IMG/VR virus record: IMGVR_UViG_3300009497_000011
Span: 1-42,895 of that record
Source: a virus
DNA length: 42,895 nucleotides
Strand: one strand, 5' to 3'
Both the position numbers and the translations under genes were made by a program. This document shows positions 25,971-34,679 of the stretch, in pieces; position 1 is the stretch's first letter, and each line of letters opens with the position of its first letter. Under the pieces are notes generated by a model. That model was not told where the DNA came from, searched no databases, and saw only the letters and a list, made by a program, of their open reading frames with translations.

Positions 25971-25993
25971 ACCACTTTAAAACACAAAGCACT

Positions 25994-26377
25994 ATGAAAA
26001 AACTAAGCGACACCTTAAAAGAACTAAACATCAAATTCAGCTTTCCCATTAAAATCAAAGATGCTAATGGTAACAGGACTTACTACGAGGACAGTGATGG
26101 CGACTGGTCTAAGTATGAGTATGATGTTGATGGCAACACGACTTACTACGAGGACAGTGATGGCTACTGGTCTAAGCGTGAGTATAATGCTGGTAACCAG
26201 ACTTACTTCGAGGACAGCAATGGCTCATGGTCTAAGCGTGAGTATGATGCTGATGGCAACGAGACTTACTTCGAGCACAGCGATGGCACCAAGGGGGGGA
26301 CTCCAAGATCAGCCAAGGCTTGCGAAGGTAAAATCGTCGAAATTGACGGTGTTAAATACGAACTCAAAGCACTATGA
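25994..26377 (+). CDS. YD-repeat-like protein, first paralogue (127 aa)
   Basis: After the start MKKLSDTLKELNIKFSFPIKI, the protein has about four copies of an ~20-residue unit of the form YYEDSDGYWSKREYDADGN, which alternates acidic turns with aromatic pairs. This is reminiscent of YD/RHS repeats (YDaDGN.T) but shorter. A final segment, GTPRSAKACEGKIVEIDGVKYELK, follows. The next gene has the same head, repeats and tail start, so the two are tandem duplicates; the stop and next ATG overlap as ATGA. Function unknown; a beta-sheet binding scaffold or inhibitor is conceivable. Confidence 0.7.
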   Translation: MKKLSDTLKELNIKFSFPIKIKDANGNRTYYEDSDGDWSKYEYDVDGNTTYYEDSDGYWSKREYNAGNQTYFEDSNGSWSKREYDADGNETYFEHSDGTKGGTPRSAKACEGKIVEIDGVKYELKAL

Positions 26378-26724
26378 AAACACTAAGTGAAACACTATCA
26401 GAACTAAACATCAACTTCAGCTTTCCCATTAAGATTGAAGATGCTAATGGCAACACGACTTACTACGAGCACCGCGATGGCTACTGGTTTAAGCGTGAGT
26501 ATGATGCTAATGGCAACATGACTTACTTCGAGGACAGTGATGGCAAATGGTCCAAGTATGAGCATGATGCTGAGGGGAAAATGACTTACTACGAGAAAAG
26601 TGATGGCAAATGGTCTAAGTATGAGTATGATGTTGATGGCAACGAGACTTACTTCGAGGACAGCGATGGCACCAAGAGGGGGACTCCAAGATCAGCCAAG
26701 ACTTGCGAAGGTAAAACACTTTAG
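26374..26724 (+). CDS. YD-repeat-like protein, second paralogue (116 aa)
   Basis: It begins MKTLSETLSELNINFSFPIKI, nearly the same as the preceding gene, then carries four units such as TYFEDSDGKWSKYEHDA. It ends GTPRSAKTCEGKTL, lacking the last ~12 residues (VEIDGVKYELK) of its neighbour. DNA repeats of about 60 bases underlie the protein repeats, so unit number could change by slippage or recombination. No known partner. Confidence 0.7.
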   Translation: MKTLSETLSELNINFSFPIKIEDANGNTTYYEHRDGYWFKREYDANGNMTYFEDSDGKWSKYEHDAEGKMTYYEKSDGKWSKYEYDVDGNETYFEDSDGTKRGTPRSAKTCEGKTL

Positions 26725-30273: not shown

Positions 30274-30642
30274 ATGAACGAAGCTAGTTTCAGTAGATAC
30301 TTAGCTGGTCATCTCAAAAAGCTGGACGGGTTTATCCAGCGGTTGGAAGTGACAACAGGTGCAGGAGTGCCAGATATGGTGCTCCTGCATTCTAACCAAA
30401 CTCATTGGATCGAACTCAAGTGGAAGACAAAGCATATCAGGCCAGAACAATACGTATGGGGCATCAAAGCAAAAGCCTCAGGCGTTACCGTAAACTACCT
30501 CGTTGGATACGAAGACCGTATCGAACTGTACAACGTGTCCGAAGCAACCCCTATGGCTCGTTCTTGGAAATTAACCGAACTAACTACAACCACAGATAGA
30601 ACCAAAAACGGAATAACAGAACTACTCAACCACCTACTATGA
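30274..30642 (+). CDS. PD-(D/E)XK nuclease, VRR-NUC/resolvase-like (122 aa)
   Basis: The active site is visible as GVPD at residues 31-34 and ELKW at 47-50, followed by the basic segment KTKHIRPEQYVWGIKAKASG. This is the order E...PD...(E)xK...Q of the VRR-NUC and Holliday junction resolvase group. In a phage replication operon it probably resolves branched DNA or takes a role like T7 gp3. Gene length is typical for stand-alone VRR-NUC proteins. The stop overlaps the next ATG. Confidence 0.85.
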   Translation: MNEASFSRYLAGHLKKLDGFIQRLEVTTGAGVPDMVLLHSNQTHWIELKWKTKHIRPEQYVWGIKAKASGVTVNYLVGYEDRIELYNVSEATPMARSWKLTELTTTTDRTKNGITELLNHLL

Positions 30643-30884
30643 CACTCGAAGAAATGCCCACAGACGAACTCTTGCAGCTGCTCGAACGCTACGAGAAACG
30701 AGCAAAGAGTTTATTCTACAACGTACCCGTATCCTCACCACAGTACAGCAAACACCAGAAGCAGTGGGCGGATAAGGACTACTACGACAACAGTGTTTGG
30801 ATACACAACATCGAACACATACTCAAATCCAGAGGATACACCTATGACAAAACTTCAAGAACCTTTATTCCTCCCAAAGATTAG
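30639..30884 (+). CDS. Small protein overlapping the DNA polymerase start (81 aa)
   Basis: A charged helical protein (LEEMPTDELLQLLERYEKRAKSLFY) with Tyr-rich C-terminus. It overlaps the nuclease gene by four bases and the DNA polymerase gene by 41 bases, a compact arrangement that suggests coupling. Function unknown. Confidence 0.65.
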   Translation: MTLEEMPTDELLQLLERYEKRAKSLFYNVPVSSPQYSKHQKQWADKDYYDNSVWIHNIEHILKSRGYTYDKTSRTFIPPKD

Positions 30885-32682
30885 TTGGTTCCCACCAACC
30901 TCTTTCCCCACTTTAGGTACCACCCTCGCTATCGACGTGGAAACACGCGACCCTCATCTCAAGAAAACTGGTCCCAGTTTTAAACGAGGTGAAGGTGAAG
31001 TAATCGGCATAGCTCTAGCCGACAATACACAATCTATATACTTGCCGATTGCTCATAGCGGGGGTGGGAACCTATCCAAGAATCTAGTCATCAGCTATGT
31101 AAAAAGCGTAGTGGCATTAGCCAATGAGGTAATCATGGCTAACGCTCTCTATGACCTTGGATGGCTCGATACATTAGGAATCGAAATCAAATGTCCTGTA
31201 CGGGATATCCAAGTTGCTGAAGCACTACTCGATGAAGAACGCTACTCATATTCTCTTGATGCACTATCCCACGACTATCTCGGAAGAGGAAAAGATGAAG
31301 CAGGCTTACGCGCTGTTTCTGCTGCTTACTCCGTGGCAAACCCTAATTTCTGTCCAAAAGGAGATATGTGGAGACTACATTCAGGCTACGTCGGTAAATA
31401 TGGTGAAGCTGATGCTCGAAATACCTTCGACATATACACACTTCAACTGCCTAAACTGCATGCTGAGGATCTCACACGAGTCTGGGAGCTAGAATGCGAT
31501 GTAACCAAGGCTCTCCGCTACATGACTAAGATGGGAGTACCAGTGGACCAAGAAGCTGCTGAGAAACTTCGGGATGAAATGTGGGTAGAAGAGAAGCGAT
31601 TGACACAGCAATTCAAAGGTGTAGACATCTGGTCCACTGACCAACTAGCTCATCATTTAATCAAAAATGGAATTTCAGTACCTAGAACCGAAAAAGGAAA
31701 CTATTCAGTCACCAAAGACTTTCTCGTCAACTCCACCAACCCGCTCTGCCAAGAACTCAATAACCTTCGAGGACTTAACCGTCTACGAAAAGTATTTGTT
31801 GAGGACACTGCCCTTAAAGGAACGTATCAAGGTCGTATTCACTCAGATTTTCGGCAGACGGCGTCGGACGAGGGTGGGACTAGGTCAGGACGACTTAGTT
31901 CATCCAACCCCAACATGCAGCAAGTGCCTAAACGAAGTAGCTGGGGTAAACGAATCCGATCCCTGTACATTGCTGAGCCTGACACCCTCTGGTGCAAAGC
32001 GGACTACTCATCACAGGAACCTCGACTACAAGTCCACTACGCCAAGCTCCTCAATCTTCCAAAAGCTGATGAAGCTGCTGCGGCGTTTAGCAATGGAGTT
32101 AAGTTGTACACGTTCTTCGAAGAACTTACAGGACTACCATACGACACTTGCAAGATGCTATGCTTGGGAATCGGATACGGAATGGGCAAAGCCAAGATGT
32201 CCGAAACCCTCGGAGTCTCAATCGAAGAATGTGAAAACATCCTAGACCGATTCAACACCCACGCACCATTCCTCCGTCTGCTCTTTGATCGGACGATGAA
32301 CATGGCGAGCGAACGAGGAACCATCCGAACCATCCTTGGTCGGGTAGCTCACTTTAACCAATGGACTACTGGCTTCGGTAGTCCCGTTTACAAAACAAAG
32401 AAGGAAGCGGTAGCGGCAGGCGACGGACGTCACCCAAGCCGAGCATTCACTTCTAAAGCCCTTAACAGATTGATTCAGGGGTCGGCAGCCGACCAGTCGA
32501 AACTCGCTCTTGTAGAGTGTTATAAGGCTGGATTTGACATTAGGTTGCCTGTCCATGATGAAATTTGCTGCATGGTTTCCAATGAAGCCGAAGGTAAACG
32601 TGTTGGTGAGATCATGGAAAACGTAATTAATCTCAGCGTACCTTCCGTTGTTGACCTTGACATTGGTCCTTCTTGGTGTTGA
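30844..32682 (+). CDS. DNA polymerase, family A with 3'-5' exonuclease (612 aa)
   Basis: The exonuclease motif I is AIDVETRD (Asp31, Glu33). The ANALYDLGWLD and YGEADARNT segments give motifs II and III. Polymerase motif A is ADYSSQEPRL (Asp387), motif B is RAFTSKALNRLIQGSAADQ, and motif C is VHDEICC (Asp572, Glu573). In the O-helix the residue equivalent to E. coli F762 is Leu441 (KMLCLGIGYG). I use ATG 30844; the longer frame needs GTG at 30793. It is the replicative enzyme. The last 111 bases have a diverged copy at 33229-33339 beyond the HNH gene. Confidence 0.95.
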   Translation: MTKLQEPLFLPKISWFPPTSFPTLGTTLAIDVETRDPHLKKTGPSFKRGEGEVIGIALADNTQSIYLPIAHSGGGNLSKNLVISYVKSVVALANEVIMANALYDLGWLDTLGIEIKCPVRDIQVAEALLDEERYSYSLDALSHDYLGRGKDEAGLRAVSAAYSVANPNFCPKGDMWRLHSGYVGKYGEADARNTFDIYTLQLPKLHAEDLTRVWELECDVTKALRYMTKMGVPVDQEAAEKLRDEMWVEEKRLTQQFKGVDIWSTDQLAHHLIKNGISVPRTEKGNYSVTKDFLVNSTNPLCQELNNLRGLNRLRKVFVEDTALKGTYQGRIHSDFRQTASDEGGTRSGRLSSSNPNMQQVPKRSSWGKRIRSLYIAEPDTLWCKADYSSQEPRLQVHYAKLLNLPKADEAAAAFSNGVKLYTFFEELTGLPYDTCKMLCLGIGYGMGKAKMSETLGVSIEECENILDRFNTHAPFLRLLFDRTMNMASERGTIRTILGRVAHFNQWTTGFGSPVYKTKKEAVAAGDGRHPSRAFTSKALNRLIQGSAADQSKLALVECYKAGFDIRLPVHDEICCMVSNEAEGKRVGEIMENVINLSVPSVVDLDIGPSWC

Positions 32683-32690
32683 CTTGAGTC

Positions 32691-33224
32691 ATGTACAATG
32701 AAACCATATACTTTCAAGGTAATCATGAACAACCTTTAATCATATATAGTGACGGTCGAGTATACCGACCTGACTATATATCTAAGTGTGGTCGGCTAGT
32801 TAAGGGACGATTTATTTCCTTTAATGGGAGACAACAACAAAGACCTGTGTGTGTCGGTACGGTGTACAACCGTACCACACTTCACCACAGGCTAATCGCC
32901 CAAGCTTTCTTACCTGAATACAAACCCAACCTACACGTTGATCATATTGACGGTAATCCAGAAAACAACTGCCCAAGTAACCTACGTATGGTCACACAGG
33001 CGTTCAATAACCGAGCACATAAAGAACCCTACAGAAAAGGAAAAACTACATCAAAATACAGAGGCGTTTCTTGGATGAAGAGCAGAGGTAAATGGCGAGC
33101 CGCCATAACCCACCAATATAAACAAATTCATATCGGACTATTCGATTCTGAAGAAGCCGCCAAATTAGCGTACAACGAAAAAGTAAAAGAACTCAAGCTT
33201 CCCAGAGAAGCACTAAACAATTAA
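32691..33224 (+). CDS. HNH homing endonuclease with AP2 DNA-binding domain (177 aa)
   Basis: Residues about 1-60 resemble the NUMOD4-like lead-in (IYSDGRVYRP...). The HNH core is LHHRLIAQAF..., HVDHIDGNP (83-90) and NNCPSNLRMVT (92-102). An AP2 domain follows at about 121-165 (SKYRGVSW, GKWRAAI, HIGLFDSEEAAKLAY). This is the usual build of free-standing phage homing endonucleases. It lies eight bases after the polymerase stop and is flanked by two copies of the polymerase 3' end, so it seems to have entered the polymerase gene end by homing. Confidence 0.92.
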   Translation: MYNETIYFQGNHEQPLIIYSDGRVYRPDYISKCGRLVKGRFISFNGRQQQRPVCVGTVYNRTTLHHRLIAQAFLPEYKPNLHVDHIDGNPENNCPSNLRMVTQAFNNRAHKEPYRKGKTTSKYRGVSWMKSRGKWRAAITHQYKQIHIGLFDSEEAAKLAYNEKVKELKLPREALNN

Positions 33225-33228
33225 CGCT

Positions 33229-33339
33229 ATGGTCTCTACAGAATCCGAAGCAAAAAAGCTTGCAGAGATCATGGAAAACGTAATTCATCTCAACGTACCT
33301 ACCATTGCTGACCTTGATGTTGGTAAAAGTTGGTGCTAA
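33229..33339 (+). pseudogene. Duplicated DNA polymerase 3' end (36 codons)
   Basis: This 111-base frame encodes MVSTESEAKKLAEIMENV then IHLNVPTIADLDVGKSWC. It aligns without gaps to the last 36 codons of the polymerase (MVSNEAEGKRVGEIMENV then INLSVPSVVDLDIGPSWC) at 32572-32682. By my count 84 of 111 bases match. It retains an ATG and a stop and sits four bases after the HNH stop. Either this is the original polymerase end, displaced by a co-inserted copy, or it came with the endonuclease. It might still be translated as a short peptide. Confidence 0.9.
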
Positions 33340-33354
33340 CCCAAACAACCACCT

Positions 33355-33858
33355 ATGACAGACACATTAGACACTATACTTGAACTGGGCGACCGCCTCC
33401 AAGCCCTGAAACAAAGGCTTCAGGAGGAAGAGGAGACAGTTTCAGAGACCAAAAACCAGATCCGACAACTTGAAGAAATCGACATCCCTCAGCTGATGGA
33501 TGAGCGTAATTTAGAAGAACTTCGGTTAAGCAGCGGTAAGAAAATCAAAGTTAAAGACTTTGTCCAAACCCGACTGAAAGACGCCAAAACCGCCATCCAA
33601 TGGCTCCGAGATACCCACAACGATGGTATCATTAAGAATGAGATCAAAGTTTTGCTAGATCGAGGACAGGACGATCGAGCTGAGATGATCAAAGAAGACC
33701 TCAAGACACGAGGTGTTACCTTTGACCACAGTCAGACAGTCCACCATTCAACACTCAAAGCCTTCGTAACAGAAGCATTGAGTGACCCAAAACTTAGAGA
33801 CCAGCTTCCACGAGAAGCCTTCGGTGTCTACGAGTCACGCAAAGTGACATTTAAATAA
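33355..33858 (+). CDS. Coiled-coil protein between polymerase and SSB-like genes (167 aa)
   Basis: Residues 5-60 form a strong coiled coil (LGDRLQALKQRLQEEEETVSETKNQIRQLEE). The C-terminal half is mixed (LKDAKTAIQWLRDTHNDG, LLDRGQDDRAEMIKEDLKTRGV) with a final YESRKVTFK. Similar proteins lie between polymerase and SSB genes in other short-tailed phages, so a replication accessory role is likely. No enzymatic motif. The start ATG is 15 bases after the duplicated polymerase end. Confidence 0.7.
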   Translation: MTDTLDTILELGDRLQALKQRLQEEEETVSETKNQIRQLEEIDIPQLMDERNLEELRLSSGKKIKVKDFVQTRLKDAKTAIQWLRDTHNDGIIKNEIKVLLDRGQDDRAEMIKEDLKTRGVTFDHSQTVHHSTLKAFVTEALSDPKLRDQLPREAFGVYESRKVTFK

Positions 33859-33932
33859 TCTCTCCTACAAGTAGCTGGAGTAAAAGAGCTACCCTAATCA
33901 TAGAAATATAGAACCAAACGAAATAAATAAAT

Positions 33933-34679
33933 ATGGCATACGACCCAACTAAACACGAAGGCACTGGTCTTGACGAACTAGAGCAATCATCCAAAATGCC
34001 TCTGCTGAATCTGATTCAGCAGATGTCACCACAAATCAACCCACAGAAGGATCAGTACATCGAGGGATCCAAGGCTGGAGATATCTTCTTCGCCCCGACT
34101 TCCGAAGTACTGGAGCAACCAATTGAGTTCCTTCCTGTCGCTCTCAAGACAGTTTACGTAGAATGGAAACCAATGGATCAAGGTGGCGGCATCGTCAATG
34201 TTCACGGTTTGGACATTCGCGGACGTGCGGATCTCGGCTACAAGCAGGGTGTCCGTACCAAGTACGACGAGTGGCTTGGTGATAACGAGCTCAAGAAGAC
34301 GACCTATGTCATGGGTCTCATCGAGCTCGAAGGTGAGCAGACAGATTGCATGCTGGCACTCACGTCCACTGGACAGCGTGTCGCTCGCAAGCTTCAGGAC
34401 GACATCAACAAGTTCCGTTACGCTGGTGACTTGAAGATGGTCAAGCCTGCTGTATTCGCACGAGCCTTCAAGCTCAAGTCCGAATACGCCGAGAACGCTA
34501 AGGGCGACGGCTTCTTCACTTGGAAACTCACAGAACCACGCGTTCTCGACTTCAAGAAAGATGAAGCTCTTCTCGACTTGGCTGTTTCCAAGAATACGGA
34601 TGCGCAGGCAGCTCTGCCCAGCCCGTCTCCTGTAAATGCCACTCCGTTGATTGAGTCATCGGACGGCGACATCTTCTAA
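33933..34679 (+). CDS. Single-stranded DNA-binding-like protein (248 aa)
   Basis: The body is beta-rich with a structured N-terminus (MSPQINPQKDQYIEGSKAGDIFF). The C-terminus is a Ser/Pro-rich linker ending in IESSDGDIF, which resembles the acidic C-terminal tip of SSB proteins (DDDIPF) used to recruit partners. It follows the polymerase group and precedes the primase unit. Codons here are rich in C- and G-ending triplets (CTCAAG, GACGAC), suggesting high expression. I infer ssDNA binding; the fold is not proven by motif. Confidence 0.6.
   Translation: MAYDPTKHEGTGLDELEQSSKMPLLNLIQQMSPQINPQKDQYIEGSKAGDIFFAPTSEVLEQPIEFLPVALKTVYVEWKPMDQGGGIVNVHGLDIRGRADLGYKQGVRTKYDEWLGDNELKKTTYVMGLIELEGEQTDCMLALTSTGQRVARKLQDDINKFRYAGDLKMVKPAVFARAFKLKSEYAENAKGDGFFTWKLTEPRVLDFKKDEALLDLAVSKNTDAQAALPSPSPVNATPLIESSDGDIF

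Follow-up and report, generated by a model that had tools for sequence, protein, structure and literature searches.

Introduction

An element that replaces one end of the gene it invades has been described in yeasts: the WHO element of Torulaspora and Lachancea replaces the 3' end of the FBA1 gene each time it inserts, and the old end stays behind as a fragment and recombination site (Coughlan et al. 2020, PMC7282813). Here we report that a virus genome, IMG/VR record IMGVR_UViG_3300009497_000011, probably carries an element of comparable design. The stretch analysed, hereafter the window, is one IMG/VR virus record of 42,895 bases (positions 1 to 42,895), in which a whole family A DNA polymerase gene is followed by an HNH/AP2 endonuclease gene and then by a second, orphan copy of the polymerase 3' end.

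The likeness to WHO lies in the leftover fragment, which serves as right-hand homology. As far as the accessible part of that account goes (PMC7282813), WHO resides in nuclear genomes, encodes an intein-like endonuclease with a zinc finger, cleaves DNA in experiments and is of the 3' type, whereas the window carries an HNH/AP2 gene in a phage, cleavage is predicted from sequence and a mirror-image 5' type was also present among the phage loci analysed here. The window element works like WHO but stands outside the WHO family, because HNH_3 and AP2 domains replace the intein-derived endonuclease with zinc finger, a type to which the window protein does not belong.

A second precedent is provided by mobile open reading frames (ORFs) of fungal mitochondria, for which C-terminal replacement has been described at atp6 of Allomyces and at atp6, atp9, cox2 and nad3 of Glomus (PMC3630166). 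There too the target carries a foreign C-terminus, followed by an endonuclease ORF and the native C-terminus, and the native copy groups with close relatives. However, the endonucleases are of the LAGLIDADG or GIY-YIG type, the genomes are organellar and the targets are other genes (PMC3630166); the window holds no LAGLIDADG or GIY-YIG ORF in organellar DNA, but an HNH/AP2 gene in a virus record.

Free-standing phage endonucleases, such as T4 seg/mob (PMC2988022) and IPA-HNH and T5orf172 (PMC10448857), also resemble the window gene. In the accessible text of these sources they lie between conserved genes, often beside DNA polymerase or terminase genes, are absent from relatives and spread by break repair with co-conversion of the flanks, but a duplicated target end, left behind or fused to the endonuclease, is not part of what is described there. 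A partial parallel from T4 intron homing is illegitimate break repair (Parker et al. 1999, cited in PMC2988022), with one-sided homology, a microhomology joint and insertion without right-hand homology; it is an intron model system, however, and not an end-replacing element. No description of end-replacing elements in phages was found in open-access full texts, although an account in a subscription journal is possible.

Results

The polymerase locus of the window comprises the following features.

30844..32682, plus strand: family A DNA polymerase gene, the putative target of the element (PF00476, E=1.9e-50; alternative GTG start at 30793)
32563..32682, plus strand: polymerase-attached 3' end (I-C-C-MVSNEAEG...PSWC, then stop), 84/111 to the orphan; probably the incoming end
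32691..33224, plus strand: HNH/AP2 endonuclease gene, 177 amino acids (PF13392, PF00847, phrog_99)
33217..33224, plus strand: junction, at which the HNH C-terminus with its TAA stop runs into the opening codons of the orphan (AATTAAC), from the sequence and comparison with relatives
33220..33339, plus strand: orphan polymerase 3' end (INAMVSTESEAKKL...KSWC, then stop), probably the displaced resident end
33355..33858, plus strand: next gene, DUF7307, Pam3 gp33-like (PF23984, E=1.5e-23), which also comes after the polymerase region in relatives

The 3'-terminal 111 bases of the polymerase gene (32572-32682) aligned without gaps with 33229-33339, with 84 of 111 bases identical and an exact block of 21 bases (GAGATCATGGAAAACGTAATT); the runner-up ungapped placement of this 111-mer, over the whole window and both strands, reached 50/111. 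Comparison of the two flanks of the HNH gene gave E values of 4e-20 (blastn) and 1.6e-15 (tblastx), and both copies are open reading frames that each end with a stop codon. These results confirmed the duplication reported in a preliminary description of this DNA, and the second copy evidently derives from a polymerase gene's end rather than being a chance resemblance. Its start, however, lies further upstream than placed there: the orphan begins at 33220 and not at 33229, with the codons ATT AAC GCT (I-N-A) ahead of its ATG, and these correspond to the VHDE-INA-MV of relatives, whereas the polymerase-attached tail reads VHDE-ICC. At motif C, 48 of 78 related polymerases read VHDEINA and 25 of 78 VHDEINC. 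The HNH stop codon (33222-33224) lies inside the I-N-A codons, and the junction site falls directly after polymerase motif C (VHDE). A further suggestion, that the second copy could be translated from its ATG, gained no support; no clear ribosome-binding site was seen ahead of it.

Of 108 coding bases, 26 differ between the two copies, divided 9/8/9 among the three codon positions. The 13 amino-acid substitutions are nevertheless much more conservative than expected at random (p=5e-5), and an equal number of random changes gave rise to a stop codon in 52% of trials, whereas none arose in the window copies.

The protein encoded between the copies matched HNH_3 (PF13392, 1.7e-11), AP2 (PF00847, 5.4e-9) and phrog_99 (E=3.8e-34). 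Its D-H-N-N core is intact, and the invariant H and N are retained in the alignment.

Eighty polymerase loci from IMG/VR, 39-62% identical to the window polymerase, were used for comparison; the best full-length IMG/VR polymerases were only ~60% identical to it, and no near DNA match of the window was found among phage isolates. At the most conserved columns of the tail the orphan has the family residues, N (38/38 distinct relatives), L (37/38) and A (38/38), while the corresponding residues of the attached tail, C, V and V, occur in none of the 38. Because it keeps the family residues at these columns, the orphan is favoured, short of proof, as the resident end of the window, and the attached tail as the incoming one. 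The conserved columns alone made this separation: similarity of the whole 36-residue tail to outgroups (mean identity 18.4 versus 20.0 of 36) did not distinguish donor from resident.

HNH loci were gathered with three alignments, which yielded a non-redundant set of 237 HNH ORFs, apart from the window, which received a score of its own. A single-protein scan with the window HNH protein gave one distant locus, a scan with the primase-like gene found no locus, and an AP2-only alignment was rejected as a query since it was too variable. The screen asked whether the end of a neighbouring gene was present on both sides of the HNH gene, with mismatched locus pairings as the null. Six loci scored 52-82, compared with null maxima of 42 and 44 in 1,412 and 1,253 mismatched pairings, and the window scored 136. 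Two are of the 3' type, as in the window: L222, at a terminase large subunit gene, and L423, in the genome of Caballeronia glathei DSM 50014, at a gene that we take from its sequence to be VRR-NUC-like, no Pfam match having been found. The 5' type, its mirror image, was seen in L091, L150 (primase-like), L167 (tail gene) and L417 (DUF968); here the 15-20 codons with which the downstream gene opens double as the N-terminus of the HNH protein.

The signature was present at 7/238 HNH genes and at 5/955 other genes of these loci (p=0.004). By their positions and sequences, although not each was inspected, the five non-HNH matches look like tandem paralogues or low-complexity repeats. Two more duplications look real but lie at the edge of the null and were left out of the count. 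At L345 (3400-4080) the end of a chitinase-like gene (KKRFDRIYSIFKS, then stop) is echoed past the HNH gene (QRRFTRIYSVLKK, then stop; score 42), and at L421 (3228-3910) the HNH N-terminus MTRILTFESKTSN resembles MTRILSFDQSTKN, with which the RuvC-like gene downstream begins (score 43).

Close HNH-free relatives made polarity testable at three loci. The L222 terminase is 97-98% identical to those of the empty relatives L250, L253 and L267; the L222 orphan matched their terminase ends at 66/66, 64/66 and 64/66 nucleotides, respectively, whereas the attached end of L222 matched them at 46, 44 and 44 of 66. In protein letters the resident form of this terminase site reads HREF-VDRAPRR and the attached form HREY-VATAPKR. 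The gene after the terminase is colinear between the orphan side of L222 and the empty relatives, divergence of the attached end starts just a few tens of bases ahead of the junction, and the junction lies exactly at the HNH stop codon, as in the window. The upstream protein of L167 is 99% identical to that of the empty relative L330, with 200 identical nucleotides upstream; the start of the L330 tail gene matched the HNH-fused piece of L167 at 41/45 nucleotides and the gene-attached start at 30/45. At L423 the orphan, which is fused to the HNH C-terminus, reads KAKEWRHRIVDVS and the attached end KTKQWLHKIVDVS; in a relative, a second genome from this genus, the gene ends with KAKEWRHRVVDVS. 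These comparisons showed that at L222, L167 and L423 the orphan is by sequence the resident end, whereas the end now attached to the gene is foreign, because the orphan is far nearer to the empty relatives than to the attached end. For L150 the search for relatives returned L150 alone, and the two copies in L091 were too alike for the test. The same architecture of whole gene, HNH gene and second gene end is present in the window, where the polarity seen directly at these three loci would, by analogy, also hold.

The tail of each related polymerase was sought in the 700 bases downstream of its own gene, which was possible for 79 of the 80 loci. A second tail was found in one (L073, score 116), all others scoring 36 or less, and a polymerase-tail search of isolates returned no record with two tails. 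A profile search found no HNH ORF in the related polymerase loci (L002-L081), where conserved genes follow the polymerase; relatives with the same insertion, for which the preliminary description had proposed a search, were thus not found among them. At L073 (6800-7360) the last 23 polymerase codons are repeated beyond an insert of ~400 bp, which has two small ORFs with no recognised domain or nuclease. All differences between these copies (10/10) are silent and at third codon positions, whereas the codon-position counts of the window copies gave no separation when tried as a means of dating their divergence to before or after the insertion. L066, a relative of L073, lacks the insert. With its other cargo and other boundaries, the L073 duplication is separate from that of the window and does not make the second copy a feature shared with HNH-free relatives; polymerase tails in this group have therefore been duplicated by insertions more than once.

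Three other observations were made. Many relatives have an ORF of ~84-109 amino acids between the polymerase and DUF7307-like genes, where the window has the HNH gene instead (32683-33354). In one HNH locus (L112:3774-4460) an AP2-like segment is duplicated around a gene, possibly through AP2 domain shuffling. At 25979-26454 the window has a tandem pair of similar short ORF starts (QSTMKKLSDTLKELNIKFSFPIKI...), like tandem repeats in L026, L029 and L060.

Discussion

The window is likely to carry an end-replacing homing element. The earlier proposal that a donor's polymerase end arrived with the endonuclease, keeping the target whole and leaving the old end behind, is supported by the conserved columns in the window and by polarity at L222, L167 and L423. 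The architecture, its absence from relatives, its recurrence around other HNH genes and targets and the polarity at those three loci are seen in the sequences, whereas the repair route, the resistance of the new end, the polarity in the window and the cut beside motif C, which is deduced from the junction, are inferred. The HNH enzyme of a donor phage would cut the polymerase gene of a co-infecting phage just past motif C. On the left side, repair through homology in the polymerase body would give the recipient the donor's divergent 3' end together with the HNH gene; on the right side, repair would occur at or beside the cut, where the orphan end already lying behind the donor's HNH gene probably supplies the homology. 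The product would be a polymerase gene that is complete but chimeric, followed by the HNH gene and, stranded beyond it as an orphan, the 3' end that the recipient had before. The new end would probably be uncuttable, its cut site being gone, and attached ends do differ from resident ends at the junction, consistent with the predicted resistance. One-sided repair with a microhomology joint is a possible founding step of such an element.

Several points weigh against this interpretation. Cleavage and homing are predicted from sequence, and as no close relative of the window was present in the collections searched, its polarity depends on indirect comparison. The repeats are short (13-40 codons), and the signature also occurs around non-HNH genes, though more rarely. 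In addition, L073 has no nuclease gene and yet shows a tail duplication with other cargo, so that endonuclease-free recombination can look alike.

That locus also bears on the strongest alternative, illegitimate recombination without homing, in which unequal crossover of related phages joined the end of the HNH gene to the inside of another polymerase and two tails resulted by chance. The 23-codon duplication in L073, around ~400 bp with no HNH gene, indicates that such joints can form, and one-sided, microhomology-mediated break repair is known from T4 (PMC2988022). Chance crossover is nevertheless unlikely, given that the same outcome was seen at various HNH genes and targets and at both 5' and 3' ends, more often than at other genes (7/238 versus 5/955), and that in L222 as in the window the junction coincides exactly with the stop of the HNH gene.

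A local tandem duplication of the polymerase 3' end, after which the HNH gene entered between the two copies and one of them diverged, is compatible with the window taken alone, without a close relative. It is improbable when the other loci are considered: none of the tested relatives has a tandem tail lacking an insert, the attached ends of L222, L167 and L423 came from outside, and the window orphan is the family-like copy. Since the window is a single IMG/VR contig, a metagenome assembly chimera of two strains was also weighed. This explanation is very improbable, as the architecture recurs in further contigs and also in a cultured strain's genome (C. glathei DSM 50014, L423), and the sequences show no shared k-mer of the kind needed at the joint between the HNH end and the polymerase inside. 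Finally, a group I intron or intein, a spliced element with the second copy as its exon, is the least credible explanation, although introns often encode the HNH genes that lie in phage polymerase genes (PMC3428280). No Rfam intron was matched in 30500-34500 at E<1 (the single match was a chance one to a snoRNA family), and a group I intron around the HNH gene was rejected on this result. Both tails are stop-terminated and are alternatives rather than continuations of each other, and the HNH gene forms an ORF of its own, start included.

Beyond the window, the chances are about even that phages carry a class of homing element, so far undescribed, that replaces one end of an essential gene, be it 3' or 5', and reuses the displaced end as part of the element. 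If this is true, the displaced end would serve as the right homology arm, or would begin or terminate the reading frame of the endonuclease, and the strategy of WHO and of the mitochondrial elements would have been invented independently. A free-standing nuclease would thereby invade the interior of an essential gene with neither intron nor intein, by bringing a spare end, and a target end that flanks an HNH gene on both sides would be a signature predicting the cut site and the sensitive and resistant alleles. Genes for polymerase, terminase, primase and tail proteins would have their ends continually reshuffled, and the 3' or 5' ends of marker genes such as polymerase and terminase may differ in history from the gene body.
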